Positions 9,465-32,182 of a stretch of DNA of 64,000 nt are shown in pieces (the first letter of the stretch is position 1; each line of letters starts with the position of its first letter). The DNA is from Nocardia asteroides. GTDB lineage: Bacteria; Actinomycetota; Actinomycetes; Mycobacteriales; Mycobacteriaceae. The stretch spans positions 558,001 through 622,000 of the forward strand of contig NZ_CP089214.1 in NCBI RefSeq assembly GCF_021183625.1, given 5' to 3'. The notes beneath the pieces were generated by a model. That model did not search any database and was not told where the DNA came from. It saw only the letters and a list, made by a program, of their open reading frames with translations. The translations under genes were made by a program, and so were the position numbers.

Positions 9465-10436
9465 GTGGGCGAGTCGATGACCTGGGTGCAGGCTTTGGTA
9501 CTCGGGCTGGTGCAGGGGCTCACGGAGTTCCTGCCGGTCTCCTCGTCGGGGCATCTGCGGATCGTCTCGTCGGTCTTCTTCGGCGCGGACGCGGGCGCCT
9601 CCTTCACCGCCGTCACCCAGCTCGGCACCGAGGCCGCGGTGCTCGTCTACTTCGGCAAGGACATCGCGCGGATCATCGTGGCCTGGTTCGCCGGGGTCGG
9701 CGCACGGCTGCGCGGCAAGCGCGAGCCGGCCGAGCAGACGGTGCCGATCACCGACCAGGTGACCACGAAGCTCCCCGTCTACAACCCGAGCGACCCCGCG
9801 ACCATGAAGCTCCCGGTGCTCACCGCCGCCGCCGACGCGCAGCGCGACCTCGACTACCGGATGGGCTGGTACGTCATCATCGGCACCATCCCGATCGGGC
9901 TGCTCGGCTTCCTCTTCAAGGACGAGATCCGCACCGGCGCCAGGAACCTGTGGCTGGTCGCGATCATGCTCATCGTCTTCGCGCTGGTGATCGCCGCCGG
10001 TGAGCACTTCGGGCGCAAGGAGCGGCCGCTCGCGCAGCTCAGCACCAGGGACGGCATCGTCATGGGGCTGGCCCAGTGCCTCGCGCTCGTCCCCGGCGTC
10101 TCCCGCTCCGGCGCCACCGCCACCGCGGGGCTCTTCCTCGGCCTGGAGCGCGCCGCCGCCGTCCGCTTCTCCTTCCTGCTCGCCATCCCCGCGGTCACCG
10201 CCTCCGGGCTGTTCAGCCTCCCGGACGCCTTCGAACCGGCGGGCGAGGGGCTCAACGCCTCCGGCACCCAGCTGCTCGTCGCCACGATCCTGGCCTTCTT
10301 CGTCGGCTACGCCTCGATCGCCTGGCTGCTCAAGTTCGTCGCCGACCACTCGTTCTACTGGTTCGTCGGCTACCGCGTCATCCTCGGCTTCGTCCTCATC
10401 GGATTGCTCGCCACCGGGGTCGTCGCCGCCACCTGA
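9465..10436 (+). CDS. uppP: undecaprenyl-diphosphate phosphatase
   Basis: Integral membrane enzyme that dephosphorylates undecaprenyl pyrophosphate so that the lipid carrier of peptidoglycan and arabinogalactan synthesis is recycled; it also confers bacitracin tolerance. The N-terminus carries the family signature [18 protein letters not shown] with its catalytic glutamates and serines, and the second signature PGVSRSGAT is near residue 210. At 323 residues it is longer than the usual 265-290 because of a hydrophilic insertion at about residues 84-125, as seen in many corynebacterial relatives. The GTG at 9465 was chosen because GGAGG lies just upstream (9456-9460); an in-frame ATG at 9477 is the alternative. 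It follows the NRPS by 100 bases in the same direction, which may be co-transcription or coincidence. Confidence 0.95.
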
Positions 10437-18830: not shown

Positions 18831-18945
18831 CCGGCGCGGGACACAACCGGATTCAGTTGTGCCAGTTGTCATCTCGGTTACCGATAGTTTCGGACCGAGT
18901 GCGCTTCGGGCTGCCGGAGCGGCCCGCAGCGGATACCCTGGAGGG

Positions 18946-19635
18946 GTGACCAGACGGATTATCCGAGCCGGTTCGGCGGTGGCGATCACCGCGTTCCTGG
19001 CAGTGGGGTGTGGCGATGGGTCCGGGGGGCTGCCCGATCCGCAGTTCCTGCTCCGCGGCGCGACCGCGGCCAGCGCGGCGGTGACCAGTGCACACGTGGA
19101 GATGAGCAGCGAGGGCAGCCTCTCCGGGTTCAGCGCCAGGGAGCTGAACGCGGATGTCAGAGCGCGCGGCAAGAGCGGTCCGGGAGCCTCCGTGGGGACG
19201 GCCGAGGTCGCCGGCGCCACGCTGGCCTTCGTCGAACAGGAGGGCAGGTTCTACTCGCGCGGCGCGGACGGGCGGTACAGCGCGGCGCAGCTGCCCGGCG
19301 GCGCGGCGCTGCCGCGGCCGTCGGAGCTGCTCGATCCCGAGCGCGGGCTGGCGAAGCTGCTCGGCGGGCTGCGCGATGTGCGCACCGAGGTGCGGGAGGA
19401 GCACGAGGGGGTGCTCTCCTTCCGGGTGGCCGGGACGGTGCCGCGGGCCGACGCCGCGGTCTGGCTGCCGGGCACCGCGGGCGATCCGAGACTGACGGTG
19501 TGGTTCGCGGCGCAGGGCAGGCACCTGCCGGTCGGCACCCGGCTCGCCACCGTCAACGACACCGGGGAGCCGGTCACCATCGACTTCGCGCTGAGCGAGC
19601 TGAACGAGAAGGTGCAGATCCCGGCGGTCGACTGA
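18946..19635 (+). CDS. LprG/LppX-like lipoprotein
   Basis: A 229-residue lipoprotein. The lipobox LAVGC near residue 22 follows a short hydrophobic signal, so the mature protein should be acylated on cysteine and anchored outside the membrane. The body matches the LppX/LprAFG group: an early helix (LLRGATAASAAVTSAHVEM), a run of beta strands with ARELNADVRARG, and a WLPG...LTVWF strand pair near residue 185. Members of the group carry lipids such as triacylglycerol or glycolipids across the mycolata envelope. Function in lipid transport here is by family, not shown by context. GTG start with GGAGGG immediately upstream. Confidence 0.82.
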   Translation: MTRRIIRAGSAVAITAFLAVGCGDGSGGLPDPQFLLRGATAASAAVTSAHVEMSSEGSLSGFSARELNADVRARGKSGPGASVGTAEVAGATLAFVEQEGRFYSRGADGRYSAAQLPGGAALPRPSELLDPERGLAKLLGGLRDVRTEVREEHEGVLSFRVAGTVPRADAAVWLPGTAGDPRLTVWFAAQGRHLPVGTRLATVNDTGEPVTIDFALSELNEKVQIPAVD

Positions 19636-19673: not shown

Positions 19674-20045
19674 TCAGCGCCCGACCCGCAGGGCGGCCAC
19701 GACCGCGGCGACCTCACCGGCCACCTCGGCCCGCAACTCCCACTCGTCGGGCTCGTCGCGTCGGCGCACCGTCAGCCGCACCTGGTCACCGGGCACGACG
19801 AAGCGCCGGAACCGCAGGCCGCGCGCCTCGCGCAACCGCAGCAGCGGCTCCGCCGCCGTCGCCCGGATCAACGCGATCCCGCTCTCCAACAGCAGCATTC
19901 CGGGCAGCGTCGGGTAGCGCGGGAAGTGCGCGGTGAACACCGGCAGCGTGCCGGTGACGTTCAGCACCGCGGTGCCGCACTCCCCCGGCCGCACGATCTC
20001 GACCGCGTCGAAGGCGGGCGCACCGTAGGTCGCCGCCGCCGTCAC
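19674..20045 (-). CDS. FabZ-like hotdog dehydratase
   Basis: A 123-residue single-hotdog protein of the beta-hydroxyacyl-ACP dehydratase type. It keeps the hallmark HFPRYPTLPGMLLLES at residues 40-55, with the catalytic histidine and the acidic residue of FabZ (H...LLLES). Expected reaction: dehydration of 3-hydroxyacyl-ACP, or a related acyl-ACP step. The GTG start at 20045 overlaps the upstream gene's TGA (GTGA), so the pair is translationally coupled. It is the last gene of a four-gene minus-strand operon divergent from the ACP/ketosynthase operon, and I infer it supplies tailored acyl chains to that pathway. Primary FAS in mycolata uses FAS-I and HadABC, so this is an accessory copy. Confidence 0.75.
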   Translation of the reverse strand: MTAAATYGAPAFDAVEIVRPGECGTAVLNVTGTLPVFTAHFPRYPTLPGMLLLESGIALIRATAAEPLLRLREARGLRFRRFVVPGDQVRLTVRRRDEPDEWELRAEVAGEVAAVVAALRVGR

Positions 20046-20515
20046 GACGCGCTCCGCACCGGCGCGTCCAGCGGGCCGGCGCCGAGCAGGATCCCCGCGG
20101 TCCGCGCGGTCTCCGCCGGGTCGTCGAAGCGGTCGGCGTCGACGAAGGCGCACATGATCCGGCGGGCGACCAGGATCGGCTCGCCGTCCACCCGCACCGT
20201 GCCGTCCACGCTCGCCGTGCGGGATCCCGCCTGGGTCACCTCGACCTCCAGCTGCAGCACGGCGCCGCGCCCGGCATCGCGCAGCACCGACACCTCGGCG
20301 ATGTTCAGCAGCGCGGCCCGCTTCCGGTGCTCCGAGCTGAGCAGCACCAGCCAGGCGCCTGCCTGGCACAGCGCCTCCAGCACGATGCCCGCGGGCAGCA
20401 CCGGCCCGGCCGCCGACGGCTGCCAGTAGTCCTCGTACACCGAGGTCGCCTTACGAGCGCGCAGCGTCCGCATCGGCTCCCACGACTCGATGCGATCGAT
20501 CAGCTGGAACTTCAC
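20042..20515 (-). CDS. hotdog-fold dehydratase-like protein lacking the catalytic histidine
   Basis: A 157-residue FabA/FabZ-like hotdog protein. The start matches the family (VKFQLIDRIESWEP, then LRARKATSVYEDYW), and the central helix is PVLPAGIVLEALCQAGAWL, equivalent to the PVMPGVLxxEAxAQ helix. Where active FabZ proteins have GHFPGxP, this protein has QPSAAGP, so the catalytic histidine is missing while the helix glutamate is kept. It may be a structural partner of the neighbouring 123-residue hotdog protein, in the way that inactive and active hotdog subunits pair in HadABC-type dehydratases. GTGA overlaps join it to both neighbours. Confidence 0.7.
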   Translation of the reverse strand: MKFQLIDRIESWEPMRTLRARKATSVYEDYWQPSAAGPVLPAGIVLEALCQAGAWLVLLSSEHRKRAALLNIAEVSVLRDAGRGAVLQLEVEVTQAGSRTASVDGTVRVDGEPILVARRIMCAFVDADRFDDPAETARTAGILLGAGPLDAPVRSAS

Positions 20516-21144
20516 GGCGCCTCCGCCCCGAGCAGCGCCCGGAGCCGCTCCGCCAGCTCCGGTGGTGCCGAGTCGGCGACGCGGGCGATTGATTCCGGCC
20601 CGGATAGCAGCTCCGCGGCGGATGCGAGTACGGCGGGATCCAGCTCGGCCAGACAGCCGCGGAGCTGGGCGGCGGTCGCGATGTCCAGCATGCCGGCGAG
20701 GGTGGGGTGGTCGGCGGCGGTCACGAGTTCGCGCGCCACCTCGACGGCGAGTGGCACCGGGAGCGCGGCGATCACCGCGCCGGAGCGCGCCAGATCCAGG
20801 TACGTCGCCACCCGGGCCAGGTACTGCGGGGTGAGCCGCTGGGCCACCGCGGCGGCCCTGGCCGGCTCCATCACCGCCGCCAGGTGCGCGGTCATCAGCG
20901 GGCTGTCGTTGCGGGTCGCGACCTTGGCCGCTATCTGCGGCGGTACCAGCCGGGTCGCGGCGGCGACCGAGCTCAGCCCGGCCTCCTCGGTGATGCCGAA
21001 GATACGGTCCGACACCAGGATTCGCAGCGCGGCGAGGTCGGCGGCGGGAACGTCGGTGAGGTAGCCGATGCGCTCGGCGGTGACCCCGAGCAGCCGGGCC
21101 AGCGCGGTGACCGCGGCCCGCCGGACGGCCGGTGTGTCGTTCAC
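20512..21144 (-). CDS. hypothetical helical protein of the hotdog operon
   Basis: A 210-residue protein predicted to be almost wholly alpha-helical, with repeating units of about 20-25 residues (for example MTAHLAAVMEPARAAAVAQ, then LTPQYLARVATYLDLARSG, then LAGMLDIATAAQLRGCL). The rhythm resembles the right-handed helical superhelix of MgtE N-domains or HEAT-like repeats; that is an impression, not a family assignment. No membrane segment or signal peptide. It starts at GTG 21144 inside a GTGA overlap with the gene before and ends in a GTGA overlap with the hotdog gene after. Likely an accessory or scaffold protein of the same pathway. Confidence 0.7.
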   Translation of the reverse strand: MNDTPAVRRAAVTALARLLGVTAERIGYLTDVPAADLAALRILVSDRIFGITEEAGLSSVAAATRLVPPQIAAKVATRNDSPLMTAHLAAVMEPARAAAVAQRLTPQYLARVATYLDLARSGAVIAALPVPLAVEVARELVTAADHPTLAGMLDIATAAQLRGCLAELDPAVLASAAELLSGPESIARVADSAPPELAERLRALLGAEAP

Positions 21145-21386
21145 CGCCCCACCGCCCGCCGGATCGCCGGGCGGAGGAATGCGGGGATGGCATCGAGCGC
21201 GTCCTCCGCGGCGCTGGTCAGCTCCTCGATCCGCCGCGCGCAGGCGGCGTCGACCAGCTCGGCGAGGTCGGCCCGGTGCGCCGCGGGCAGCGCGGCGACA
21301 CCGGCGGGCAGCGGCGCGGCGAAGAGGCCGGGCAACCGGTCCTCCGGCACAACGGGATCTTCGGATTGCGTCAACACGACCTCCAC
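21141..21386 (-). CDS. small hypothetical protein, first gene of the hotdog operon
   Basis: An 81-residue protein from GTG 21386, rich in Ala, Leu and charged residues, with one likely helical segment (AHRADLAELVDAACARRIEEL). No recognised domain. It overlaps the next gene by GTGA, which strongly supports translation. The first gene of the divergent ACP operon starts about 560 bases away on the other strand. Confidence 0.55.
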   Translation of the reverse strand: MEVVLTQSEDPVVPEDRLPGLFAAPLPAGVAALPAAHRADLAELVDAACARRIEELTSAAEDALDAIPAFLRPAIRRAVGR

Positions 21387-21942
21387 GGCGACAGGGCAGC
21401 GCTACATCCGCATCCACACCGATGCGGAACGGGGACAGGGGTTTTCGGACGATCCGAGCTGAGGAGCGGACCACCGTGGTCCGACGGCCGGAGCGTAACA
21501 CGGCGCGCCGGGAGCCGCCCGAAGATCGGGTTCACCGAGCGGTCACTCGGTAAATGCAATTCTCGGGCAATTCGGGCAGCGCGCTGGACCGTCGCGAATG
21601 AATTGCGCGGTCGACGCCCGGAGGACTGGATAGCTCGTGGTGTGCGGCGTGGCCGTTTCGGCCATCCGAATGCAAATAGTCGCCCGTCCAGTTCTGTGCA
21701 TTTTCACATGCTTGCCGAGACCTGTTGACGCTGAAGCGCTCTCGATCTAATCTCGAACCCGGCACCCGGCCGGTCGGCATGTTGCGAGGATTGGGAATCC
21801 TCCGTGCCGGCAGTTGTGAAATTCGACATCGCTGTCGAAGGGTGATCCCGGTACTCGTCGTCGCCGACGAGGTTGCATACTCTCCTTGGCTACCCGCGCT
21901 ACGCAGTATCGCTGCGCTGATGCGGGGAAAGGTCGGTCAATC
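21387..21942. other. 556-base divergent intergenic region of the biosynthetic locus
   Basis: This is the longest non-coding stretch in the window and is visibly less GC-rich than its surroundings (about 21540-21900). No convincing gene was found in it on either strand. On the plus strand it holds a good promoter (21725-21753), then a 7-pair hairpin GAGGATT-GGG-AATCCTC (21786-21802) and an inverted repeat TTCGAC-N6-GTCGAA (21822-21839), all upstream of the acyl carrier protein start at 21943. The transcript leader would be about 180 bases. The regulator is not encoded in the adjacent operons. Confidence 0.6.
21725..21753 (+). promoter_or_regulatory. predicted sigma-70-type promoter for the ACP/DarB/DarA operon
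   Basis: TTGACG at 21725-21730, a 17-base spacer and TAATCT at 21748-21753 give a near-consensus vegetative promoter, the only good one in the divergent region facing the acyl carrier protein gene. Transcription would begin near 21760. Confidence 0.55.
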
Positions 21943-22194
21943 ATGTCTGTCGACGTATCCATCCGCGACGATATCGCCGAATTCCTGCGTGCCCATTACG
22001 ACGTCGATCTGGACGTCGTCTCGCCCGATTCGACGCTGGATGACCTCGGCCTCGATTCCCTCGGCGTCCTCTCGGTCGCCGATCTCATCGAGAACAAGTA
22101 CGGCATCTCGCTGGACGACGAGCGAATCGCGTCGGTGCGCACCTTCACCGATCTCATGGGGCTGATCCGGCTCAAGGCCGCCGAAGCCTCCTGA
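21943..22194 (+). CDS. acyl carrier protein (DarC-like)
   Basis: An 83-residue acyl carrier protein. The phosphopantetheine attachment serine is in DLGLDSLGVL near residue 36, with the acidic helix II (VADLIENKYG) that ketosynthases recognise. The ATG at 21943 is used; GGGGAAAGG lies about 12 bases upstream. It is the first gene of the plus-strand operon, directly before a DarB-type ketosynthase and a DarA-type flavoprotein, the same trio that makes dialkylresorcinols in Gram-negative bacteria. I infer that it carries the beta-ketoacyl chain, or receives one from the FabF-like enzyme encoded further down. Confidence 0.93.
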   Translation: MSVDVSIRDDIAEFLRAHYDVDLDVVSPDSTLDDLGLDSLGVLSVADLIENKYGISLDDERIASVRTFTDLMGLIRLKAAEAS

Positions 22195-22261
22195 TCGGCG
22201 CGTCCTCCTTTCCTCGCGTTTCCGCACAGCCCCGGTCACCGATCCGAAAAGGCACGACTCC

Positions 22262-23413
22262 ATGGACGCTTACATCACCGCAACCGGCCGCTTCCTCCCC
22301 GGCGAGCCCATCACGAACGACGAGATCGAGGAGTACATCGGCAAGGCGGGTCGCGCCTCGTCGGATCTGAAGGACCAGATCCTGCAGAACAGCGGCATCA
22401 AGACGAGGCACTATGCCATCGACAAGGACCAGAACACGGTCTACTCCAATGCCCGCATGGCTGCCGAGGCGGTGCGCGCGGCGGTCGACCGGGCCGGCCT
22501 GACGCCGGAGGGCGTGGAGATGCTGGCCGCCGCCACCACGCTCCCCGACCTGATGGGGCCGGGCCACGCCAGCATGGTGCACGGCGAGCTCGGCTATCCG
22601 CCCATGGAGATCGTCACCACGCACGGCATCTGCAGCTCCGGAATGATGGCGTTGAAGAATGCCTATCTGCAGGTGAAGGTCGGCGAGAAGCGAACCGCGC
22701 TCGCGGTGGCGAGCGAGCTGGCCAGCCGCGGCTTCAAGCACACGCGCTACGCCGAGATGAAGACCACGACCGAAGACGGCTCGCTGCCGATGGAGACCGC
22801 CTTTCTGCGGTACATGCTCTCGGACGGAGCCGGTGCGGCGGTGGTCTCGGATACCGCGCCCGCGGATCGCACGAGCCTGCGGATCGATTGGATCTCGCTG
22901 ACCTCGTACGCGAACACCGAGAACGCCTGCATGTACTTCGGCAGCACCAAGAATTCCTGCGAGAAGACCTGGGGCGATTACCCCTCGGCGTCGGAGGCCG
23001 CCGCGGCGGGCGCCCTCGCGCCGCGGCAGAAATTGTCGCTGCTACCGCATCTGGTGCGGGTCGGAATCGACGAGTACGAAAAACTCGCCAATGCCGGGAA
23101 ATTCGATCCGGATACCGTCACCTGGTTTCCCGCGCACTACTACAGCGAACGCATGAAAACGATGCTGACCGGAGAATTGAAACGGCGCGGCGTCTCCGCG
23201 GGCCGCCCGGAGGCGTGGTTCAGCAACCTTACGCAGGTGGGGAATATCGGCAGTGCGAGTATCTATGTCATTCTGGACGAAATGCTCACGCAGAATCTGG
23301 TGCAGCCCGGTGACACCCTGCTCTGCATGGTGCCGGAATCGGGACGATTCGCCATCTCGTTCATGCACCTGACCGCGGTGCGCGGCCCGATCGAACATTC
23401 GGGCGCCGCATGA
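22262..23413 (+). CDS. DarB-type beta-ketoacyl synthase III (dialkylresorcinol / cyclohexanedione condensation)
   Basis: A 383-residue thiolase-fold ketosynthase. The N-terminus GRFLPGEPITNDEIEEYIG followed by NSGIKTRHYAIDK is characteristic of DarB proteins of flexirubin and dialkylresorcinol clusters rather than of primary-metabolism FabH. The catalytic cysteine is in HGICSSGM near residue 123, the histidine in FPAHYYSERM near 297 and the asparagine in QVGNIGSAS near 330, so all three are intact. DarB enzymes condense and cyclise two beta-ketoacyl-derived chains to a cyclohexanedione. Stop and next start overlap as ATGA, and the neighbours before and after are ACP and a DarA homologue, which makes the assignment firm at family level. 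The chains used here are unknown. Confidence 0.88.
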   Translation: MDAYITATGRFLPGEPITNDEIEEYIGKAGRASSDLKDQILQNSGIKTRHYAIDKDQNTVYSNARMAAEAVRAAVDRAGLTPEGVEMLAAATTLPDLMGPGHASMVHGELGYPPMEIVTTHGICSSGMMALKNAYLQVKVGEKRTALAVASELASRGFKHTRYAEMKTTTEDGSLPMETAFLRYMLSDGAGAAVVSDTAPADRTSLRIDWISLTSYANTENACMYFGSTKNSCEKTWGDYPSASEAAAAGALAPRQKLSLLPHLVRVGIDEYEKLANAGKFDPDTVTWFPAHYYSERMKTMLTGELKRRGVSAGRPEAWFSNLTQVGNIGSASIYVILDEMLTQNLVQPGDTLLCMVPESGRFAISFMHLTAVRGPIEHSGAA

Positions 23414-24363
23414 CGGGACATACCGGAATCCGGGCGGTGCGGCCCGGTGGCGCCGTCGGCGCCGACACCAGGCCGGTCGTGGTCTTCGAGTACTCGCAGA
23501 CCGGCCAGCTCACCGAGGTGGCCGATGCGCTGGTCGCCCCGCTCGAGGCGGCGGGCAGGCCGGTGCGCCGGGTGCGCTACGCCCCGGCCGAGCCGTACCC
23601 GTTCCCCTGGCCGGTCGCCCGGTTCTTCGGCGTATTCCCCTCTGCCACAGACGAATCGGCGCGGGTCGCGCTCACCGTCGATCCCTCCGAGCTGTACACC
23701 GGGCCGGACGAACTGGTGATCCTGGCCTACCAGGTGTGGTATCTGGCGCCGTCGGTACCGGTGCGCTCGCTGCTCGCCGCGCACCCGGAGCTGTTCGCCG
23801 GGCGCGATGTCGTCACCCTGGTCGCCTGCCGGAACATGTGGTACTCGGCGGCCGCCGAGGTGCGCCGCACGCTCACCGCGGCAGGCGCCGCGGCGGTCGG
23901 CACCGTCGCCGCGATCGACACCAGGCCGCAGGGCATCACGCTGGTCACCACGCTGCGCTGGCTGTTGCTCGGCTCCAGGGACGGGTTCCTGGGCAGGGCC
24001 GGGGTCGGCGCCGACGAGCTGCGCCGGGTCGGCGCGGTCGGCGAGAGGCTCGCGGCGGCCACCGGGCCGGACGAGACCGCACAGGCGCTGGCGGGTGCGG
24101 CACCGGTGGTCCCGGTGCTCGCCGCCGCGGATCTCGTCGCCGGACAGGTCTTCCGGCGCGCGGGTGCGGTCATCCGCCCAGCGCGCGGTGCGGCCAGGGC
24201 AGCCGGGCTGCTCGGCTTCGCGCTGACGCTCGGCGTCGCCATCGTGACCGGGCTGCCCGCGCTGGTGGCGGCCCGGCTGCTGCTCGGCAAGCGGTTCGAC
24301 CGGGTGGTGCAGGCCCGGCTGACCGGGGTGGGCGCCGCTGCGAGTGCGGGAGCAGCGCGGTGA
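23410..24363 (+). CDS. DarA-type flavodoxin-like protein (dialkylresorcinol aromatase family)
   Basis: A 317-residue protein annotated elsewhere as dialkylresorcinol condensing enzyme DarA. The flavodoxin-like phosphate loop is EYSQTGQLTE near residue 30, followed by the family landmarks PFPWPVARFFGVFP near 69, LAYQVWYLAPSVPV near 107 and VACRNMWYSAAAEV near 138. Work on the Photorhabdus pathway assigned DarA to the oxidation (aromatisation) of the DarB-made cyclohexanedione to a resorcinol. A hydrophobic stretch near the C-terminus (GFALTLGVAIVTGLPALVAA, about residues 270-289) suggests membrane contact. The gene overlaps darB-like by ATGA and the FAD monooxygenase by GTGA. Family call strong; the flavin cofactor is inferred from the loop. 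Confidence 0.85.
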   Translation: MTGHTGIRAVRPGGAVGADTRPVVVFEYSQTGQLTEVADALVAPLEAAGRPVRRVRYAPAEPYPFPWPVARFFGVFPSATDESARVALTVDPSELYTGPDELVILAYQVWYLAPSVPVRSLLAAHPELFAGRDVVTLVACRNMWYSAAAEVRRTLTAAGAAAVGTVAAIDTRPQGITLVTTLRWLLLGSRDGFLGRAGVGADELRRVGAVGERLAAATGPDETAQALAGAAPVVPVLAAADLVAGQVFRRAGAVIRPARGAARAAGLLGFALTLGVAIVTGLPALVAARLLLGKRFDRVVQARLTGVGAAASAGAAR

Positions 24364-26012
24364 GCGCCCGCGTCGCCGTGGTCGGGGCGGGCCCGGCCGG
24401 GTTGGCCGCCGCGTACGCGCTCGGGCGGCACGGCGTCGAGACCGTCGTGCTGGAGAAGCGCACCCGGCCCTCGACCCACCCGCAGGCCACCCTGGTCAAT
24501 GTCCGCACCACGGAGATCCTCCGCGAGTTCGGGCTCTTCGACGCCGCGCTCACCGCGGGCACCCCGCTGGAGCAGGCCGCGCGAGTGCGCTTCCTGACCG
24601 CGGTCGCAGGCACCGAACTCGGCCGCCTCGAGCTGATCGAGGACACCGACAAGCTCATGCGGCTCGCCGCGCAGAGCCCGGCCCGGCCGATGCTCTGCCC
24701 GCAGAACCGGTTGCAGGAGGTGCTCGCCGCCGGGCTCGCCGGGCTCCCCGAGGTCACGCTGATCACCGGCGCGACCGTCGAGGCGGTCTCGACCGGAGCG
24801 GACGGCACCGTGCTGGAGTACACCGACGGCGCGGGAGCACACCGGCTGGCCGCCGACTACGTGCTGCTGGCCGAGGGGATGCACGGCGCGCTGCGCGAGC
24901 AGGTCGGCATCACCGGGACGGCCGGTCCCCCGCTCGGCAGCCTGCTCGACGTGCACTTCCACGCCGACCTCGGGGACTGGCTCGGCGGCGCCGAGAGCGT
25001 GCTCTCCTGGATCGTCAACCGGGAGCTGCGCGGCGTCCTCATCACCGTCTCCCCGGAGCAGGACGAGTGGCTGCTGGAGATCCCGCTCACCGCCGCCGAC
25101 GGCGACCGTACCGGTGACGCCGCGGCCCTGGTCGCCGCTGCCATCGGCGCTCCGGTCGAGGTCGACATCACCGGCGTCCGCACCTGGACCATGGGCAGCA
25201 CCGGGATCGACCGCTGGCGGGACCGCTCGGGCCGGGTCTTCGCGCTCGGCGACGCCGCGCACACCTTCCCGCCCACCGGGGGGTTCGGCATGAACACCGG
25301 CATCCAGGACGCGCACAACCTGGCCTGGAAGCTGGCGGCGGTCCTGGCCGGCTGGGCGGACGACCGGCTGCTCGACACCTACCGGCCCGAGCGGGAACCG
25401 GTGGCCGGGTTCAATGCCGCGCAGAGCGAGCACAATGCCCGCGCGATGGCCGAGTTCGGGGCACTGGCGCTGGCCGCGCCGGACGCGGCGGCGCTCTCGA
25501 CCGGGATCGAGGAGCAGCGCCCGCACTTCGATTTCTACGGCCAGGCACTGGGTTTCCGGTACGGGGTGGAGCCGGTGGTCGACGACGTCATCGACTACAC
25601 CCCGGAGGTGCGCCGGGGCAGCCGGGTGCCGCACCACTGGCTGCGCGCCGCCGACGGCACCCCGATCTCCACGCTCGACCTGGCGGGCAGCGGCTTCGCG
25701 CTGCTCGCCGCCGAACCGGCGGGCGCGGCGTGGGCGGACGCGGTCGGGTACGCGCACCTGATGAACACCGTGCCGGTCACCGCGGTCACCGTGCTGGCCG
25801 GCCGCCGAACCGGCAGCGGGACCACGGGATTCGGCGATCCCTCCGGCGCGGCGACGGCGGCGCTGTTCGCCGAGCCGGGGCAGGCCGTGCTGATCCGGCC
25901 GGACGGCCATGTGGCGGCCGTGCTGCCGGGCCGCGACCCCTACAACGAACTCATCGCGGCCGTGATCCGCGCCGTCACCGACGGTTCCAGTACAGCGGAG
26001 GTATTCGTATGA
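24360..26012 (+). CDS. FAD-dependent aromatic-ring monooxygenase (class A)
   Basis: A 550-residue flavoprotein hydroxylase of the kind that hydroxylates polyketide phenols. The dinucleotide-binding GAGPAG is at residues 9-14, the second FAD motif RVFALGDAAHTFPP near 297, and the third, NTGIQDAHNLAWKL, near 317. A C-terminal thioredoxin-like domain ending in LIRPDGHVAAVLPG is present, as in PgaE- and phenol-hydroxylase-like enzymes. The usual DG motif of the family reads EG here (LLAEGMHGALR). The start GTG 24360 overlaps the DarA-like stop, and the end overlaps the next gene by ATGA. I infer that it oxidises the resorcinol ring, for instance to a trihydroxybenzene or quinone. Confidence 0.9.
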   Translation: MSARVAVVGAGPAGLAAAYALGRHGVETVVLEKRTRPSTHPQATLVNVRTTEILREFGLFDAALTAGTPLEQAARVRFLTAVAGTELGRLELIEDTDKLMRLAAQSPARPMLCPQNRLQEVLAAGLAGLPEVTLITGATVEAVSTGADGTVLEYTDGAGAHRLAADYVLLAEGMHGALREQVGITGTAGPPLGSLLDVHFHADLGDWLGGAESVLSWIVNRELRGVLITVSPEQDEWLLEIPLTAADGDRTGDAAALVAAAIGAPVEVDITGVRTWTMGSTGIDRWRDRSGRVFALGDAAHTFPPTGGFGMNTGIQDAHNLAWKLAAVLAGWADDRLLDTYRPEREPVAGFNAAQSEHNARAMAEFGALALAAPDAAALSTGIEEQRPHFDFYGQALGFRYGVEPVVDDVIDYTPEVRRGSRVPHHWLRAADGTPISTLDLAGSGFALLAAEPAGAAWADAVGYAHLMNTVPVTAVTVLAGRRTGSGTTGFGDPSGAATAALFAEPGQAVLIRPDGHVAAVLPGRDPYNELIAAVIRAVTDGSSTAEVFV

Positions 26013-26518
26013 ACGCAGTGGAGACGGCGGCGCGGCTCGCCGCCGACACCGGGAAGGCGAGCCGCGCCCAGATCGAGGATCTGCTCTCCGGTGAGCGGGC
26101 GCGGGTGCGCCGGGTGGTCGAGGTGCTGCCCGCCGATGATCTGAGCTGGGCGCTCGGCACCGAGGTCGGGGCGCAGGCGCTGCGCAACGCCATCGCGCTG
26201 ATGCCCGAGTACTACCTGCCCGGCCGGTTCGACCGCGAGGTCGCCGTCCGGTTCGAGATCACCCGCCCGCCCGGCGAGACCGTGGTGGACACCGTCTCCT
26301 TCGGCCCGCAGACCTGCCGCGTGCTCGGCCCGGAGCATCCGGGCGCGGTGGCGCTGACGGTGTACCTGGACGGCGCCGGCTTCGCCCGCATCGCCACGGG
26401 CCTGGACAAGGGCATGGAGCTGATGATGCGCGGCGAACTGCGGGTGCAGGGCGACGTGCAGGTCGCGATGAAGATGGAGGCCTTCTTCGGCCTCGACCCG
26501 AAGGGGAAGAAGCGATGA
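26009..26518 (+). CDS. SCP2-like lipid-binding protein
   Basis: A 169-residue protein whose second half is a sterol-carrier-protein-2 domain: LMPEYYLPGRFDREVAVRFE, then a strand pair ending in ALTVYLDGAGFARIATG and the helix and turn GELRVQGDVQVAMKMEAFFG. SCP2 domains hold a hydrophobic ligand in a tunnel. The gene overlaps its neighbours on both sides by ATGA. In this operon the likely ligand is the alkyl-chained pathway intermediate, so a shuttle or substrate-presenting role is plausible; no catalytic residues are seen. Confidence 0.85.
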   Translation: MNAVETAARLAADTGKASRAQIEDLLSGERARVRRVVEVLPADDLSWALGTEVGAQALRNAIALMPEYYLPGRFDREVAVRFEITRPPGETVVDTVSFGPQTCRVLGPEHPGAVALTVYLDGAGFARIATGLDKGMELMMRGELRVQGDVQVAMKMEAFFGLDPKGKKR

Positions 26519-27762
26519 ACGGCGACCGCAAGCGGGTGGCGATCACCGGGATCGGGCTGGTCACGCCGATCGGCATCGGCACCGAGCTGTACTGGAAGCA
26601 GCTCACGGCCGGGGTCAGCGGCGCCCGGCTGATCGAATCCTTCGATGCCTCGTTCAACCGGGTCCGGATCGGCGCGGAGGTCACCGGCTTCGACCCGTCG
26701 GACTGGCTGGAGTACAAGGACGCCAGGCGCTTCGACCGGGTGGGGCACCTCGCGGTCGCCGCCTCCGACCTGGCGCTGAACGACCAGGGCATCGACGGGC
26801 TCGACCGCTCGGAGATGGCCACCGTGATCAGCTCCGCGCTCGGCGGCACCGCCACCGCGGTGCAGAACATCGAGGCGCGGGCCGGGGGCCGCAATGCCTC
26901 ACCGCTGTTCATCCCGATGACGATGGCGAACTTCGCGGCCTCCGCGGTCGCCTTCCGGCACAAGCTGGGCGGGCCGAGCTACGCCCCGCTCAGCGCGTGC
27001 TCCTCGTCCGCGGACGCGGTGGGCCAGGGCTACCGGATGATCCGCGACGGGTACGCGGAGTCGGCGCTGGTCGGCGGCGCCGAGGCGGCCATGAGCCCGG
27101 TCGTGCTCTCCGGTTTCACCAGCATGCGGGCGCTCTCCGCGCGCAACGACGACCCGAAGGGCGCGGGCCGCCCGTTCGCCGCGGACCGGGACGGCTTCGT
27201 GCTCGGCGAGGGCGCGGGCATGCTGGTGCTGGAATCGCTGGAGTCGGCGCGCGCCCGCGGCGTGCACGTCTACGCCGAGATCTGCGGCTACGGCCAGGTC
27301 GTCGACACCCACCACGTCACCGCGCCGCGCGCGGACGGCGCCTGCGCGGCCAAGGCCATGCGGCTGGCGCTGCGCGAGGCCGGCGCCGAGCCCGAGCAGG
27401 TCGGCTACATCAACGCGCACGGCACCGGCACCATCCTGTCCGACCCGGCCGAGACCAAGGCGGTGCACACCGCGCTCGGCGCGCACGCCCGCTCGGTCGC
27501 GATCAGCTCGACCAAGCCGATGACCGGGCACATGCTCGGCGCCACCGGCGCGGTGGAGGCGGCGACCTGCGCGCTGGCCATCGATCGCGGCCAGCTCCCG
27601 CCCACCATCAACCACACCGTCCCCGATCCCGAGTGCGACCTGGATTACATCCCGAACGTCGCGCGCTCGGCGAATGTCGAACTCGCGCTGTCGAATTCGA
27701 TCGCGTTCGGCGGGCACAACGTGACCCTTGCCTTCCGTCGCCCCGCTGACGAGGAGAACTGA
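26515..27762 (+). CDS. FabF-like beta-ketoacyl-ACP synthase II
   Basis: A 415-residue condensing enzyme. The catalytic cysteine is in LSACSSSADAV near residue 162, the two histidines in NAHGTGT near 299 and GHMLGATGA near 335, so the Cys-His-His triad is complete and the enzyme should be an elongating, decarboxylating ketosynthase rather than a chain-length factor. It starts with ATG 26515 inside an ATGA overlap. The operon has only this one KS besides the DarB type and no chain-length-factor partner, ketoreductase or malonyl transferase. I infer that it makes or extends the beta-ketoacyl chain for the DarB step and borrows the rest from fatty acid synthesis. Confidence 0.92.
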   Translation: MNGDRKRVAITGIGLVTPIGIGTELYWKQLTAGVSGARLIESFDASFNRVRIGAEVTGFDPSDWLEYKDARRFDRVGHLAVAASDLALNDQGIDGLDRSEMATVISSALGGTATAVQNIEARAGGRNASPLFIPMTMANFAASAVAFRHKLGGPSYAPLSACSSSADAVGQGYRMIRDGYAESALVGGAEAAMSPVVLSGFTSMRALSARNDDPKGAGRPFAADRDGFVLGEGAGMLVLESLESARARGVHVYAEICGYGQVVDTHHVTAPRADGACAAKAMRLALREAGAEPEQVGYINAHGTGTILSDPAETKAVHTALGAHARSVAISSTKPMTGHMLGATGAVEAATCALAIDRGQLPPTINHTVPDPECDLDYIPNVARSANVELALSNSIAFGGHNVTLAFRRPADEEN

Positions 27763-27764
27763 CC

Positions 27765-28238
27765 GTGGAACTCACCCGCATCGGCACCGTCACCGCGCAC
27801 CTCAAGCCACCGCAGATGATCGGCCCCGGCCCGTACGGCATCCGGATGTTCATCGAGATCATGGACGGCACGCTGGAGGGCGACCCCTCGGTGCCCGAGG
27901 TGAACTCGATCGCGGGCACGGTGCTCCCCGGCGGCGGCGACTGGGTGCTCATCGGCGCCGACGGCTGGGCCCGGCTCGACGTCCGGGTCCAGTTCCTGAC
28001 CTCGAACGGCGCGGTGGTCTTCGCCGAGTTCTTCGGGCTGATCGAGATGACCGACAAGGTGCAGGACGCGCTCATGTCCGGCGCCGCCACCGAGTTCGAC
28101 GATCAGTACTTCCGGGTCACCCCGCGGCTGGAGACCGGTGACCCGCAGCTGGAGTGGGTGAACCAGGCGGTCTTCCTCGGCGAGGGCCGCTTCGTCGAGG
28201 GCTTCGGCCTGCAGTACGTGATGTACCGGGTCGGCTGA
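27765..28238 (+). CDS. DUF3237 family protein
   Basis: A 157-residue DUF3237 protein: a small beta-barrel fold with GGGDWVLIGADGWARLDVRV near residues 51-70 and the C-terminal motif TPRLETGDPQLEWVNQ near 130. The family's biochemical role is not established; members are found in polyketide and aromatic-catabolism clusters and may bind or rearrange small hydrophobic acids. GTG start two bases after the ketosynthase stop, with GAGGAG upstream in the end of that gene. Position in the operon suggests cyclisation, binding or tailoring of the product, but this is guesswork. Confidence 0.8.
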   Translation: MELTRIGTVTAHLKPPQMIGPGPYGIRMFIEIMDGTLEGDPSVPEVNSIAGTVLPGGGDWVLIGADGWARLDVRVQFLTSNGAVVFAEFFGLIEMTDKVQDALMSGAATEFDDQYFRVTPRLETGDPQLEWVNQAVFLGEGRFVEGFGLQYVMYRVG

Positions 28239-28242
28239 GCCG

Positions 28243-28998
28243 ATGGCCGCACCGGAGAACGCCGCCGTGGTCGTCGACGACCTGCGGGTGCGGCGCGGGG
28301 AGACGGAGGTCCTGCGCGGCCTGTCGTTCACCGTGCCGCCCGGGGCCGTCACCGGCCTGCTCGGGCCGAGCGGCTGCGGCAAGACAACCCTGATCCGCTC
28401 GATCGTCGGCGTCCAGCAGCTCGGGTCGGGCAGCATCACGGTGCTCGGCGCACCGGGCGGCAGCGCGTCGCTGCGCGCCAGGATCGGCTACGTCACCCAG
28501 TCACCGTCGGTGTACGGCGACCTCACGGTGCGCCAGAACGTGCGCTACTTCGGCGCGGTGTACGGAGTTTCGGCGGCGGCCGCGGACGCGGCCGTCGCCG
28601 ACGTCGGGCTGACCGAGCACCGCGGCAGGCTGGTGGACAAGCTCTCCGGCGGCCAGCAGGCCCGGGTCTCGCTGGCCTGCGCGCTGGTCGGCAAACCCGA
28701 GCTGCTCGTGCTCGACGAACCGACCGTCGGGCTGGACCCGGTGCTGCGCCGGGATCTGTGGCAGCACTTCGCCGAACTCGCGGCCGGCGGCGCCACCCTG
28801 CTGGTCTCCAGCCACGTCATGGACGAGGCGGACCGCTGCGACCGCCTGCTGCTCATGCGCGAGGGCAGGCTGCTCGCCGACCAGACCCCCGGCGAGCTGC
28901 GCGCCGCGACCGGCACCGCCAACCTCGACGAGGCCTTCCTCGAGCTGGTGCTCGCCAGTGACCGCGCGCCGGAATCCGAGACGACAGGAGCACAGTGA
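28243..28998 (+). CDS. ABC transporter ATP-binding protein (exporter)
   Basis: A 251-residue ATPase with Walker A GPSGCGKTT near residue 44, the signature LSGGQQARVSLA near 135, Walker B LLVLDEPTVGLDP near 155 and the switch histidine in VSSHVMDEADRC near 187. The helix layout is that of the ABC-2 (DrrA-like) export family. It is 4 bases after the DUF3237 gene and runs into the permease gene, so it should power export of the pathway's product. Confidence 0.95.
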   Translation: MAAPENAAVVVDDLRVRRGETEVLRGLSFTVPPGAVTGLLGPSGCGKTTLIRSIVGVQQLGSGSITVLGAPGGSASLRARIGYVTQSPSVYGDLTVRQNVRYFGAVYGVSAAAADAAVADVGLTEHRGRLVDKLSGGQQARVSLACALVGKPELLVLDEPTVGLDPVLRRDLWQHFAELAAGGATLLVSSHVMDEADRCDRLLLMREGRLLADQTPGELRAATGTANLDEAFLELVLASDRAPESETTGAQ

Positions 28999-29735
28999 TG
29001 TCACCCCGGCTGACCTGGTGGACCGTGCGGCGGGTACTCACCCAGCTGCGCCACGACCGCCGCACGATCGCGCTGATCCTGGTGGTGCCGAGCGTGCTGC
29101 TCACCCTGCTGCGCTACGTCTTCGACGGCCGCCCCGACATCTTCGACCAGGTCGGGCTGCTTCTGCTCGGCATCTTCCCGTTCACCTCCATGTTCCTGAT
29201 CACCAGCGTCGCCATGCTGCGCGAGCGCACCACCGGCACCCTCGAGCGGCTGCTGAGCATGCCGCTGCACAAGCTGGACCTGCTGCTCGGCTACGGCATC
29301 GCCTTCGCCCTCGTGGCCATGGTGCAGGCGGCGGTGGCGGCGACGGTGGCCTACGGGTTCCTCGGGTTGCAGACCCAGGGCGCGATCGGGGTGGTGCTGC
29401 TGATCGTGGTCGCCACCGCCGTCCTCGGCTCCTCCACCGGGCTGTTCACCAGCGCCTTCGCCCGCACCGAGTTCCAGGCGCTGCAGTTCGCGCCGTCGAT
29501 CATCATTCCGCAGCTGCTGCTCTGCGGGCTGATCTGGCCGCGTGAGGAGATGGCGGGCCCGCTGCGCGCGGTGTCGGACGTGGTGCCGCTGCGCTACGCC
29601 GCCGAGGCGCTCGGCGAGGTCGGCACCTACCCGCTGCCGACCACCCTGCTCTGGCGCGATCTCGCCGTCGTGCTCGCCTTCGGCCTGGTGCTGCTCGCGC
29701 TCGGTGCGGTCACGCTGCGCCGCAAGGCGCGCTGA
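28998..29735 (+). CDS. ABC-2 type transporter permease
   Basis: A 245-residue membrane protein with about six transmembrane helices (first near residues 25-42, last near 220-240) and the ABC-2 family features LRERTTGTLERLLSMPL near residue 75 and LQFAPSIIIPQLLLCG near 163. ATG 28998 is preferred over the GTG at 28995 because GGAG is 7 bases upstream. It overlaps the ATPase stop. DrrB-like partners export hydrophobic natural products. Confidence 0.93.
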   Translation: MSPRLTWWTVRRVLTQLRHDRRTIALILVVPSVLLTLLRYVFDGRPDIFDQVGLLLLGIFPFTSMFLITSVAMLRERTTGTLERLLSMPLHKLDLLLGYGIAFALVAMVQAAVAATVAYGFLGLQTQGAIGVVLLIVVATAVLGSSTGLFTSAFARTEFQALQFAPSIIIPQLLLCGLIWPREEMAGPLRAVSDVVPLRYAAEALGEVGTYPLPTTLLWRDLAVVLAFGLVLLALGAVTLRRKAR

Positions 29736-29798
29736 GCGACCAGCTTCCGCCGCCGCCGTCGACGCGGCACCCCTCCGACGATCCCGAGGTGAACCACC

Positions 29799-30794
29799 AT
29801 GATCACCGCGCTCGGCGTCGCCAGGCACCTGGTGCCCGCGCCGTCGATGAAGGACATGCTCTTCCACACCCGCCGCTTCCCGGTCACCGCGGGCCCGCTG
29901 GCCCGGCGGTACGAGGGCGTGCCGCGCGCCGTGCTGGAGGGCTTCGAGTACGGCGCCGACATCGCCGACCCGGCCGAGATCGCGGAGCGGCTGGAGTGGA
30001 TCGATCCGCTCTACCGCAGCCTCGCCTGCGAGGGAGCGGTCGCCGCGCTCGCCATCCGGGACCTGATGTCGCCCCGCAAGCAGAGCCGCGCGATCGAATT
30101 CACCCGCGGCCCCGGGGCGCCGCACGCCATGCTGGCCTATATCGGGTTCGGGCTCGTACTCTCCCGGCTGCCCCGCCCGCTCTGGCGGCGAGCGCTGCCC
30201 CGGCTCGAGCAGGCCGAGCCGCTGCTGGCGCACCTGAGCTGGCTCGCGGTCGACGGTTACGGCTTCGACCTCGCCTTCTTCGATCCGGAGCGCTGGATCG
30301 TGCGCCGCGAGCCGGCGCCCCGCTACCGCTGGGAGGGCCGCACCGACTACTTCGATCGCGCCTTCGATCAGGGCATCGGCCGGGCCGTCGCCTTCTATCA
30401 CGCGGGCGACTACGACGCGGCCGCCGCCACGGTGCGCACCTTCGCGCCGGAGCGCAGGGCGGATCTGTGGAGCGGCGTCGGCACGGTCGCCTGCTACCTG
30501 GGCGGGATCGACCGCGCCGCGCTGCTGCGGCTCCTCGCCGCCGCGGGCCCGCACCTCCCCGACCTCGCCATCGGCGTGGTGATGGCGGCCGAGGCCAGGC
30601 AGCACGCCGGATTCGTCCCGGAGAACACCGAACTGGCGTCCGAGGTGGTCTGCGGCGCGAACGCGGCAACGGTCGCCGCGCTGGCGGTGCAGACCGCGCA
30701 GGCGCCACCCGCCCCGGAGGGGCCGCCCGCCTACGAGCAGTGGCGGCTGCGGATCCGCGCGAACTTCGCCGAGCGCGTGGCGGTGGCGCCGTGA
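29799..30794 (+). CDS. DUF1702 family protein
   Basis: A 331-residue protein clearly of the DUF1702 family: FEYGADIADPAEIAERLE, YRSLACEGAVAALAI, WLAVDGYGFDLAFF near residue 152, FDQGIGRAVAFYHAG near 190 and ADLWSGVGTVACYLGGID near 223. DUF1702 genes recur in polyketide loci, including enediyne clusters, with no established activity. No signal peptide or membrane helix is evident. It follows the permease by 63 bases and overlaps the kinase-like gene by GTGA. Its presence is a strong sign that the operon is for secondary metabolism. Confidence 0.88.
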   Translation: MITALGVARHLVPAPSMKDMLFHTRRFPVTAGPLARRYEGVPRAVLEGFEYGADIADPAEIAERLEWIDPLYRSLACEGAVAALAIRDLMSPRKQSRAIEFTRGPGAPHAMLAYIGFGLVLSRLPRPLWRRALPRLEQAEPLLAHLSWLAVDGYGFDLAFFDPERWIVRREPAPRYRWEGRTDYFDRAFDQGIGRAVAFYHAGDYDAAAATVRTFAPERRADLWSGVGTVACYLGGIDRAALLRLLAAAGPHLPDLAIGVVMAAEARQHAGFVPENTELASEVVCGANAATVAALAVQTAQAPPAPEGPPAYEQWRLRIRANFAERVAVAP

Positions 30795-32182
30795 GCGCCG
30801 CGCCGCTGCGGCTGGTCAGCGAGCCGCTGGTGGAGCGGCCGCCGCTGGACCGCTTCGGGGTGCGCGAGGCGGCCAGGGTGCTGGTGATCGGGCTGGTGCT
30901 CGGCGGCAGCCTGCTCGCCGGGCTCGGCCGCCACAGCGCACGGAGGCTGCTGCGCGGCAGCGACTCGAGCTGGCAGGAGGCAGCCGCGGAAGCCACCGTC
31001 GACGCCTTCGAGCGGCTCGGCCCGCTCTTCGTCAAGCTGGGCCAGCTCATCGCCTCCTCCTCCGGCGCCTTCCCGCCCGCGCTCTCCGCGGCCTGCCTGC
31101 GCTGCCTGGACCGGGTGCGGCCGTTCCCGGCCGCCGAGGCGCGCCGGATCGTGGGTGCCGATCTCGGGCACCCGGTGGACGAGCTCTTCCGCTCCTTCGA
31201 CGACGCCCCGCTCTCCGCCGCCTCGGTGGCCCAGGTGCACGCCTGCGTGCTCCCGGACGGCCGCGAGGCGGTGCTCAAGGTGCAGCGCCCCGGGATCGCG
31301 GGCCGGATGATCGTCGACCTGCGCGCCGCGCTGCGCACCGCCCGGCTGCTACAGCGGTTCTCGCACGCGGCGCGGGTCGCCAATGCCGTCGGCGTGGTGC
31401 ACGACCTCTACGAGGCCACCGTGAGCGAGCTGAACTTCCTGGTGGAGGCCGAGAACCAGCGCCGCATCCGGGCCGATCTCGGCGCCTTCGGCGACAACGG
31501 GGGCGTCATGGTTCCCGAGGTGTACAGCGAGCACTGCGGCCCGCGGGTGCTGTGCATGGAACGGGTGCGCGGGGTGCCGCTGGACCGCTTCGACGTCACC
31601 GCCGCCCACCCCGACCCCGAACTGCTCATCCGCAGGCTGGTGAAGGTGTGGCTGGAGGGGGTGACCGTGCACGGCATCTTCCACGGCGACGTGCACGCGG
31701 GCAACCTCTGGCTGCTCGACGACGGCAGGCTCGCCCTGCTCGACTTCGGCATCGTCGGGCGGATGACCGCGCCCTGGCGGCAGCTGGTGCGGAACATGTT
31801 CCATGCCAGCGCCTTCGACGGCGACTTCACCCCGGTCGCCACCTCGCTGCGCGAACTCGACCTGTTCCCGGACCAGAGCAGCGACGACGCCGCCATCGGG
31901 AGCCAGCTGGCCATGGTGCTCGGCCCGATCCTCTCCGGCGAGCTCGCCGAGCTGGATCTGAAGACGGTCACCGGCCTGATGCTCGACTTCGGCACCGACA
32001 GCGGGATGAGCGGCCCGCAGCAACTCATCCTGATGGGTAAGCAGCTGGGCTACTTCGAGCGCTACGCCGTCACCCTCGCCCCGGACTGGCGCCTCGGAAC
32101 CGACCTGTTCCTGCTGCGCAATGTCTTCCCCGACGAGGTGGCCGCGGCGCTGGCCGAGCGCGGAGCCACGCTGCCTGCCTGA
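30791..32182 (+). CDS. AarF/UbiB-family (ABC1) atypical kinase-like protein
   Basis: A 463-residue member of the ABC1/UbiB family. It shows the extended KxGQ motif GPLFVKLGQLIA near residue 78, the alanine-rich loop SAASVAQVH near 142, the ATP-site lysine in VLKVQRPG near 162, and the catalytic/metal motifs GDVHAGNLW near 299 and LLDFGIVGR near 318. UbiB proteins have ATPase activity that supports coenzyme Q lipid synthesis, probably by extracting hydrophobic intermediates from the membrane. A hydrophobic segment near residue 28 may be a membrane anchor. As the last gene of this operon it fits a pathway that makes a long-chain phenol or quinone. Confidence 0.9.
   Translation: MSAAPLRLVSEPLVERPPLDRFGVREAARVLVIGLVLGGSLLAGLGRHSARRLLRGSDSSWQEAAAEATVDAFERLGPLFVKLGQLIASSSGAFPPALSAACLRCLDRVRPFPAAEARRIVGADLGHPVDELFRSFDDAPLSAASVAQVHACVLPDGREAVLKVQRPGIAGRMIVDLRAALRTARLLQRFSHAARVANAVGVVHDLYEATVSELNFLVEAENQRRIRADLGAFGDNGGVMVPEVYSEHCGPRVLCMERVRGVPLDRFDVTAAHPDPELLIRRLVKVWLEGVTVHGIFHGDVHAGNLWLLDDGRLALLDFGIVGRMTAPWRQLVRNMFHASAFDGDFTPVATSLRELDLFPDQSSDDAAIGSQLAMVLGPILSGELAELDLKTVTGLMLDFGTDSGMSGPQQLILMGKQLGYFERYAVTLAPDWRLGTDLFLLRNVFPDEVAAALAERGATLPA

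Follow-up and report, generated by a model that had tools for sequence, protein, structure and literature searches.

Does an actinobacterium with a mycolic-acid outer membrane make a dialkylresorcinol (DAR) lipid, and if so, what becomes of that lipid after its ring is formed? This question is raised by a locus of Nocardia asteroides in which genes for an acyl carrier protein (ACP), a type III ketosynthase (KSIII) resembling StlD and DarB, and a homologue of DarA stand next to genes for oxidation, lipid handling and transport. The locus lies in the window, which is the whole 64,000-nucleotide stretch of DNA that was analysed (positions 558,001 to 622,000 of NZ_CP089214.1), and the genome is a single contig of 6.99 Mb. 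With moderate confidence, we predict from sequence comparisons that the locus builds a 2,5-dialkylresorcinol lipid, that it likely oxidises the ring to a hydroxyhydroquinone or quinone, and that it likely exports the product to the mycolic-acid outer membrane.

Among solved structures, the ketosynthase is closest to StlD (5gk0), at 243 bits, and the best FabH structure reaches 54 bits. FabH models give the enzyme 82.5 and 90.5 bits. Furthermore, the FabH cut-off is passed by three other proteins of the genome (378, 342 and 321 bits), whereas the DarB-like ketosynthase scores 78.5. In a tree of 34 rows, in which the branches among the six FabH/KSIII rows are very long, one branch parts these six rows from 28 DarB-like rows, including StlD, with a support of 84/91 and in 87% of 200 bootstrap trees. 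A group supported at 100/100 unites StlD, two Bacteroidetes sequences, Pseudoalteromonas and one Nocardia sequence (G143), and its position among the other actinobacterial rows is without resolution. The Cys, His and Asn are conserved in all 28 DarB-like rows and correspond to Cys124, His292 and Asn328 in the window. An earlier interpretation made from the nucleotides alone (hereafter the sequence-only reading) had claimed a KSIII with DarB landmarks and an intact Cys-His-Asn set and had proposed a tree against primary FabH as a check; the residues and the tree, in which the enzyme falls with StlD and apart from FabH, both bear this out.

The DarA homologue, for which the same reading had raised a possible grouping with unrelated flavodoxins, matched the dialkylresorcinol condensing enzyme family in profile comparisons (E 2e-67) and matched none of the Pfam flavodoxin families. 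The DAR-type identity of both proteins is supported by these comparisons. The protein has a conserved Q-T-G-Q loop, its predicted model combines a flavodoxin fold with a hydrophobic tail (Table 1), and it is likely an FMN (flavin mononucleotide)-dependent aromatase; its nearest named relatives are from Nocardia. With a KSIII that is nearer to StlD/DarB than to FabH and carries Cys-His-Asn, an adjoining DarA homologue and an ACP, the locus qualifies by its genes as a DAR-type cluster.

The neighbours of DarA are also conserved. Among 24 other DarA loci, compared over stretches of 12 to 29 kb, 13 share a core of ACP, DarB, DarA, FMO (the FAD, or flavin adenine dinucleotide, hydroxylase), SCP2 and FabF in the same order and on the same strand, with protein identities of 33-88%, and these 13 loci cover Nocardia, Streptomyces, Streptacidiphilus and Paractinoplanes. 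The Dactylosporangium locus (L012) falls outside the 13 because its ACP alone scored slightly under the cut. In 23 of the 24 loci, DarB was identified next to DarA, and the exception (L015) is a 12-kb contig. Because the six-gene core recurs in this way, we consider the association of these genes to be beyond chance. The ten-gene order, the conservation of which had been proposed earlier as a check, is conserved in part: among the five other loci with the arrangement of the window, all 16 genes sought were matched in three (L005, L007 and L014), and a fourth (L006) lies on a contig that ends before DUF1702.

DarA is present in 16 of 150 Nocardia genomes. The arrangement of the window occurs in six of the 16 (G000, G103, G023, G065, G068 and G145), and named loci with this arrangement are from N. 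aurea (L007, complete), N. inohanensis, N. jiangxiensis and N. wallacei. A variant, type B, occurs in three (G120, G141 and G142) and has an AMP ligase at the place of the UbiB-like gene (scanned in L026, from G141, only; L027 and L028 have an open reading frame of equal length). In five others (G010, G013, G043, G135 and G137), an ACP-DarB pair stands beside a long ketosynthase (KS)-bearing gene resembling a polyketide synthase (PKS), with DarA divergent, and in the last two (G030 and G143) DarA is without such neighbours. Therefore, the locus is not general in mycolic-acid bacteria. In wider samples, DarA occurs in at least 4 of 397 genomes taken from the order (E <1e-60) and in at least 3 of 394 taken from the class (E 1e-15), the genome of the window being counted in each. 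These counts are lower bounds because only five first-look candidates were scored per listed genome, and 11 weak matches of the order search (E 1e-8 to 2e-4) were not counted as DarA. The family of ORFX, an open reading frame of the divergent gene set, is present in 119 of the 150 Nocardia genomes.

The arrangement with a long KS-bearing gene was observed in Mycolicibacterium and other Nocardia (L008, L009 and L030-L034), where DarB lies near that gene and DarA, in the Nocardia loci, is divergent. An ACP match was found in all of these loci except L009, and KS, acyltransferase (AT) and ACP domains were shown in L008 only. This is a second, different DAR-type pathway in mycolic-acid bacteria.

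The genes of the window locus form two sets (Table 1). Eleven genes, from the ACP to the ABC1/UbiB-like ATPase, lie on the + strand (21943-32182), and four (ORFY, ORFX and the hotdog genes HD2 and HD1) run divergently from 21386 down to 19674. All of the genes named in the sequence-only reading were found within 19674-32182, although its left edge is too short: the LprG/LppX-type lipoprotein gene (18859-19635) is conserved beside the locus in other Nocardia. The 4-bp overlaps that it described for the operon are present at six of ten joints on the + strand, as well as at all three joints of the divergent set, and the other four joints are gaps of 67 bp (ACP/DarB), 2 bp (FabF/DUF3237), 4 bp (DUF3237/ATPase) and 63 bp (permease/DUF1702). 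No regulator is present among the 15 locus genes. Elsewhere in the window, positions 485-9361 encode a nonribosomal peptide synthetase of 2959 amino acids, with three adenylation and two condensation matches and a thioesterase, and a BacA-family gene adjoins it (9465-10433).

Table 1. Features of the predicted DAR locus, with window coordinates and the match or motif on which each name is based
Feature	Position	Strand	Basis
LprG/LppX-family lipoprotein, likely lipid carrier	18859..19635	+	PF07161 71.8 bits; true start maybe later GTG near 18946
HD1, FabA/FabZ-like hotdog dehydratase subunit	19674..20045	-	PF07977 33.8 bits; HFP and Glu motifs
HD2, FabA/FabZ-like hotdog partner without His	20042..20515	-	PF07977 30 bits
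ORFX, protein of unknown role	20512..21144	-	MgtE_N 23.1 bits, under cut-off 25.9
ORFY, small conserved protein of unknown role	21141..21386	-	Kin in 5 other loci of the window's arrangement
Divergent intergenic region, 556 bp, presumed promoter region	21387..21942	.	Gap between the two operons
Acyl carrier protein (ACP)	21943..22194	+	PF00550 40.6 bits
StlD/DarB-like ketosynthase III	22262..23413	+	NF005293 371.9 bits (cut-off 450); Cys124-His292-Asn328
DarA homologue, likely FMN-dependent aromatase	23410..24363	+	Predicted flavodoxin fold (residues 20-223) and hydrophobic helical C-terminus
FAD-dependent aromatic hydroxylase family protein (FMO)	24360..26012	+	PF01494 242 bits; PF21274 42.4
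SCP2 lipid-binding family protein	26009..26518	+	PF02036 40.3 bits
FabF-type ketosynthase II	26515..27762	+	TIGR03150 495.1 bits (cut-off 493.75)
DUF3237 protein	27765..28238	+	PF11578 125.6 bits
ATP-binding cassette (ABC) ATPase, DrrA-like	28243..28998	+	PF00005; TIGR01188 174.4 bits (cut-off 312.45)
ABC-2 permease, DrrB-like	28995..29735	+	PF01061; TIGR00025 108.6 bits (cut-off 146.9)
DUF1702 protein, predicted all-helical	29799..30794	+	PF08012 330 bits
ABC1/COQ8-family (UbiB-like) atypical kinase/ATPase	30791..32182	+	PF03109 188 bits (cut-off 22.9)

From the homologies and the gene order, together with a modelled fold for DarA, we infer every chemical step in this organism, the quinone and export steps included. 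FabF and the ACP would produce a 3-ketoacyl chain, and HD1 and HD2, judged by their family, would produce a 2-enoyl chain, with a ketoreductase (KR) borrowed from primary metabolism. The DarB-like enzyme would join both chains to a 2,5-dialkylcyclohexane-1,3-dione carboxylate, a reaction known from its characterised relatives, and DarA, through its predicted flavodoxin fold and hydrophobic tail, would use FMN to remove two electrons and yield the resorcinol. The FMO may then oxidise the ring of this hydrophobic substrate, which SCP2 would present to it and the UbiB-like ATPase would extract or handle. The ABC pair and the lipoprotein may finally pass the lipid outward. The sequence-only reading had likewise proposed an exported lipid with a hydroxylated resorcinol or quinone ring, which stays a prediction. 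We tentatively suggest, as a possibility that is itself rather doubtful, that mycolic-acid bacteria have rebuilt the DAR pathway as a ubiquinone-style assembly line joined to an export system of the type used for phthiocerol dimycocerosate (PDIM), and that their mycomembrane is coated with a non-isoprenoid, redox-active quinone lipid.

Several observations weigh against this proposal. The ketosynthase is below the cut-off of the NCBIfam StlD/DarB model (NF005293, Table 1) and reaches 323.8 bits with the NCBIfam DarB model, for which the cut-off is 550; because neither curated cut-off is reached, we name it StlD/DarB-like and not DarB proper. No Pfam or NCBIfam model matched DarA. Both members of the ABC pair are below the cut-offs of the Drr families, for which reason they are labelled Drr-like, and the UbiB-like ATPase reaches 249 bits with the UbiB model, below the cut-off of 487.55. 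No ketoreductase was found among the locus genes scanned. DUF3237 and DUF1702 are outside the proposed steps. RubL and GrhO5, the closest solved kin of the FMO, do more than simple hydroxylation, and the quinone is therefore not certain. Kin of HD2 are also present in Nocardia genomes that lack DarA (24 of the 150 have such kin at E 1e-10, as against 16 with DarA), and the hotdog pair of G103 lies approximately 1 Mb from DarA, in a cluster with several KS genes; the tie between the hotdog pair and DarB is therefore not absolute. The seven loci that have both the ABC pair and the lipoprotein belong to two related groups only, and their joint absence in G103 is a single case, in which the permease and not the ATPase was sought genome-wide. 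Finally, one of the hotdog proteins encoded with the DAR core on a Streptomyces plasmid (NBC_00008) is weakly related to HD1 (E 1e-7), and the other is not significantly related to HD2 (E 0.04).

The fate of the ring would depend on the FMO. Its closest relatives in the PDB, RubL (7ouj) and GrhO5, carry out far-reaching oxidative rearrangements of aromatic polyketides, and this kinship favours an alternative in which the FMO rearranges or opens the ring to a non-aromatic oxidised lipid that DUF3237 perhaps finishes. The position of the DUF3237 gene, which follows FabF in Dactylosporangium and in each of the eight other loci that have one of the two Nocardia arrangements, points in the same direction. 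However, enzymes that are plain ring hydroxylases by name (2-hydroxybiphenyl 3-monooxygenase and 2,4-dichlorophenol 6-monooxygenase) are also among the PDB matches, and five loci from outside Nocardia (L002, L003, L010, L011 and L013) retain the FMO but yielded no DUF3237. We consider a rearranged or opened ring to be unlikely and prefer oxidation to a hydroxyhydroquinone or quinone. The SCP2 gene directly follows the FMO gene. A second SCP2-like gene is located in the divergent gap of L005, L006, L007 and L014 and beside LppX in L026-L028, and none was found anywhere in the window, its divergent gap (21387-21942) included, or in the rest of the genome. DUF1702 is conserved in these DAR loci. 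Some of its kin carry the name enediyne biosynthesis protein in their source records, and a Foldseek comparison of its all-helical predicted model with the PDB gave no match at E 0.001 or better.

The destination of the lipid is suggested by the export genes. The lipoprotein is a member of the LppX_LprAFG family (PF07161, cut-off 24), and its kin in the PDB are LprG (3mh9, E 3.5e-14) and LppX (2byo, 3e-8). The ABC pair and the lipoprotein gene are both present in 7 of the 24 loci and both absent in 17. The two Nocardia arrangements differ in where the lipoprotein gene sits, and L014 has it inverted. If the product instead remained in the inner membrane as a redox lipid or antioxidant, the ABC pair and the lipoprotein would serve another lipid, and a UbiB-like ATPase, an SCP2 protein and flavin enzymes would suit such a membrane redox cofactor. 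Furthermore, G103 has the biosynthetic genes without the export genes: the ABC pair, LppX, HD1 and HD2 are all absent within the 20 kb of its locus (L063), a genome search for the permease orthologue (E 1e-20) returned only a 54% paralogue of a kind also present in the other two genomes searched, and the lipoprotein had no match in the genome at E 1e-10. Nevertheless, the ABC genes are located inside the operon, after DUF3237, in each of the seven loci that have them, with an LppX-type gene near, and we regard retention in the inner membrane as improbable. In mycobacteria, DrrABC and LppX serve the export of PDIM (PMC11539658), and because the Drr-like pair and the LprG/LppX-type lipoprotein parallel that system, we propose that the lipid reaches the mycomembrane. 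G103 is a natural test case for export.

According to the sequence-only reading, the last gene of the operon is AarF/UbiB-like. Its membership in the ABC1/COQ8 (ADCK) superfamily is clear (PF03109, Table 1), whereas the UbiB label is loose, in view of the UbiB score given above and a match of 127 bits to the macrolide-binding ATPase model. Of 15 matches in the genome, five are nearly full-length, this protein among them. The solved structures closest to it, 5yjz and 7cy2, are both ABC1-type and rank above COQ8, and COQ8B and COQ8A were also matched. These matches, and the publication of the dialkylresorcinol DB-2073 as an antibiotic (a title cited in PMC3949708), are consistent with a toxic secreted antibiotic for which the ATPase would provide self-protection or drug binding and would not be a quinone helper. 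We consider this distinctly unlikely: the UbiB model matched better than the macrolide-binding model, and the type B loci keep the ABC pair with an AMP ligase at the place of the ATPase (scanned in L026, and judged by gene length in L027 and L028), so that the ATPase is not tied to the exporter. As a helper of the proposed quinone lipid, the ATPase may be compared with UbiB, which together with the SCP2 protein UbiJ is an accessory factor of ubiquinone synthesis, UbiJ in the O2-dependent form only (PMC6747719). By their parts, and not by membership, the SCP2 protein, the FMO and the UbiB-like ATPase resemble this helper set.

The supply of substrates is the remaining step. DarB needs a 2-enoyl thioester besides a beta-keto chain (PMC5515871), and HD1, HD2, FabF and the ACP therefore form a coherent supply, in which the hotdog pair could provide the 2-enoyl partner. 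The two hotdog proteins noted earlier on the divergent operon are present, and they can now be further identified, by sequence, as kin of the dehydratase pair of highly reducing type II PKSs. In the motif alignment, the two show the pattern of a dehydratase pair: HD1 retains the HFP and Glu motifs, and HD2 is without the His. Kin of both, 45-63% identical, occur together in six places of Nocardia genomes (L064-L069), among three FabF-like genes and one KSIII-like gene, and the one place that was scanned (L064) has AT, ACP, KR, KS and KSIII and is read as a highly reducing type II PKS. The window locus does not qualify as such a system: its scanned genes include kin of the dehydratase pair but a single FabF, with neither a KR nor a second type II ketosynthase. 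Although the kinship of the hotdog pair and the low curated scores of the ketosynthase could be taken to indicate an ordinary chain-starting KS and a polyene or fatty product with no DAR ring, no other solved structure comes near StlD in similarity to the enzyme, and DarB adjoins DarA in all but one of the 24 loci, the exception being a short contig, which makes such a product very improbable.

Streptomyces plasmids also carry the DAR core (L002/L070, NZ_CP108315.1; L003/L071, NZ_CP108465.1), with a P450, an annotated phenylalanine aminomutase, chorismate-pathway genes and an AMP-binding protein as neighbours. On the plasmids of NBC_00008 and NBC_01260, the core is accompanied by the aminomutase, the AMP-binding protein and the chorismate-pathway genes as well as by an ACP and a dehydratase pair. 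The plasmid version is likely a cinnamoyl-primed, stilbene-type cluster.

In other phyla, dialkylresorcinols are parts of pigments or bioactive compounds. An actinobacterial version that is conserved and comes with genes for oxidation and envelope export would bring a new lipid class to the mycomembrane and would offer a testable case of UbiB/SCP2 helper logic outside the isoprenoid quinones. In addition, the locus predicts DarA to act as a membrane-tethered FMN aromatase, gives DUF1702 a context outside enediynes, and points to the stilbene-type version on Streptomyces plasmids.

The sequence-only reading knew of no described product from mycolic-acid bacteria for this gene set. In titles and abstract openings of the literature, we found no product from such a locus in Nocardia. 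However, DAR-type loci in actinobacteria had already been flagged: antiSMASH reported a T1pks-Resorcinol cluster in a Mycobacterium (PMC6351551), a label that fits the ACP-DarB plus PKS type of L008, and a resorcinol cluster family is listed in a survey (PMC10134820). In Streptomyces sp. LZZY-S40, 2-hexyl-5-methylresorcinol is named in a metabolomics table (PMC13127372); this is, like our prediction, a dialkylresorcinol in an actinobacterium, and no genes are named for it in the available portion of that paper. The available portions of these three sources tie no product to DarA/DarB genes.

Comparison with known systems places the locus between several pathways. StlD acts with its partners in the isopropylstilbene genes of Photorhabdus, to which the window is linked by its ketosynthase, although no phenylalanine ammonia-lyase or aryl ligase is present among the locus genes. 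Alkylresorcinols and alkylhydroquinones are also made by type III PKS clusters such as srs of Streptomyces griseus, and such pathways include hydroxylation steps. The agq cluster of Actinoplanes, the product of which is named in PMC7692728, likewise converts an alkyl phenol lipid to a hydroquinone; in contrast to agq and srs, where a type III PKS builds the ring, the window locus would form its ring from two acyl chains by a DarB-type KS. Relatives of the hotdog pair are found in highly reducing type II PKS clusters, whereas the window locus has one FabF without a chain-length factor and neither an AT nor a KR.

The later steps have their parallels in other bacteria. As with UbiB, UbiJ and UbiI/H/F of E. 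coli (PMC6747719), an ABC1 ATPase, an SCP2 protein and an O2-dependent flavin hydroxylase would act on a lipid phenol; unlike that set, the window has no prenyltransferase or methyltransferase, its ATPase is below the UbiB cut-off, and its FMO reaches 76 bits with the Ubi-OHases model, for which the cut-off is 224.65. Mycobacterial PDIM export also joins a Drr-type ABC system and an LprG/LppX-type lipoprotein in one locus (PMC11539658), although the window locus has a single permease where that system has DrrB and DrrC, its genes include no MmpL, and the lipid would be a different one. DAR clusters themselves are already known (PMC3992019, PMC3949708). The window shares the DarB-like KSIII with DarA with the flexirubin dar clusters of Chitinophaga and Flavobacterium and the arcuflavin dar cluster of Azoarcus, and the table of the latter also includes an ACP and ABC transporter parts (PMC3949708, PMC3992019). 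Unlike these clusters, the window locus shows no aryl polyene partner, is actinobacterial, and adds an FAD hydroxylase, SCP2, FabF, DUF3237, DUF1702, a UbiB-like ATPase and an LprG/LppX lipoprotein.

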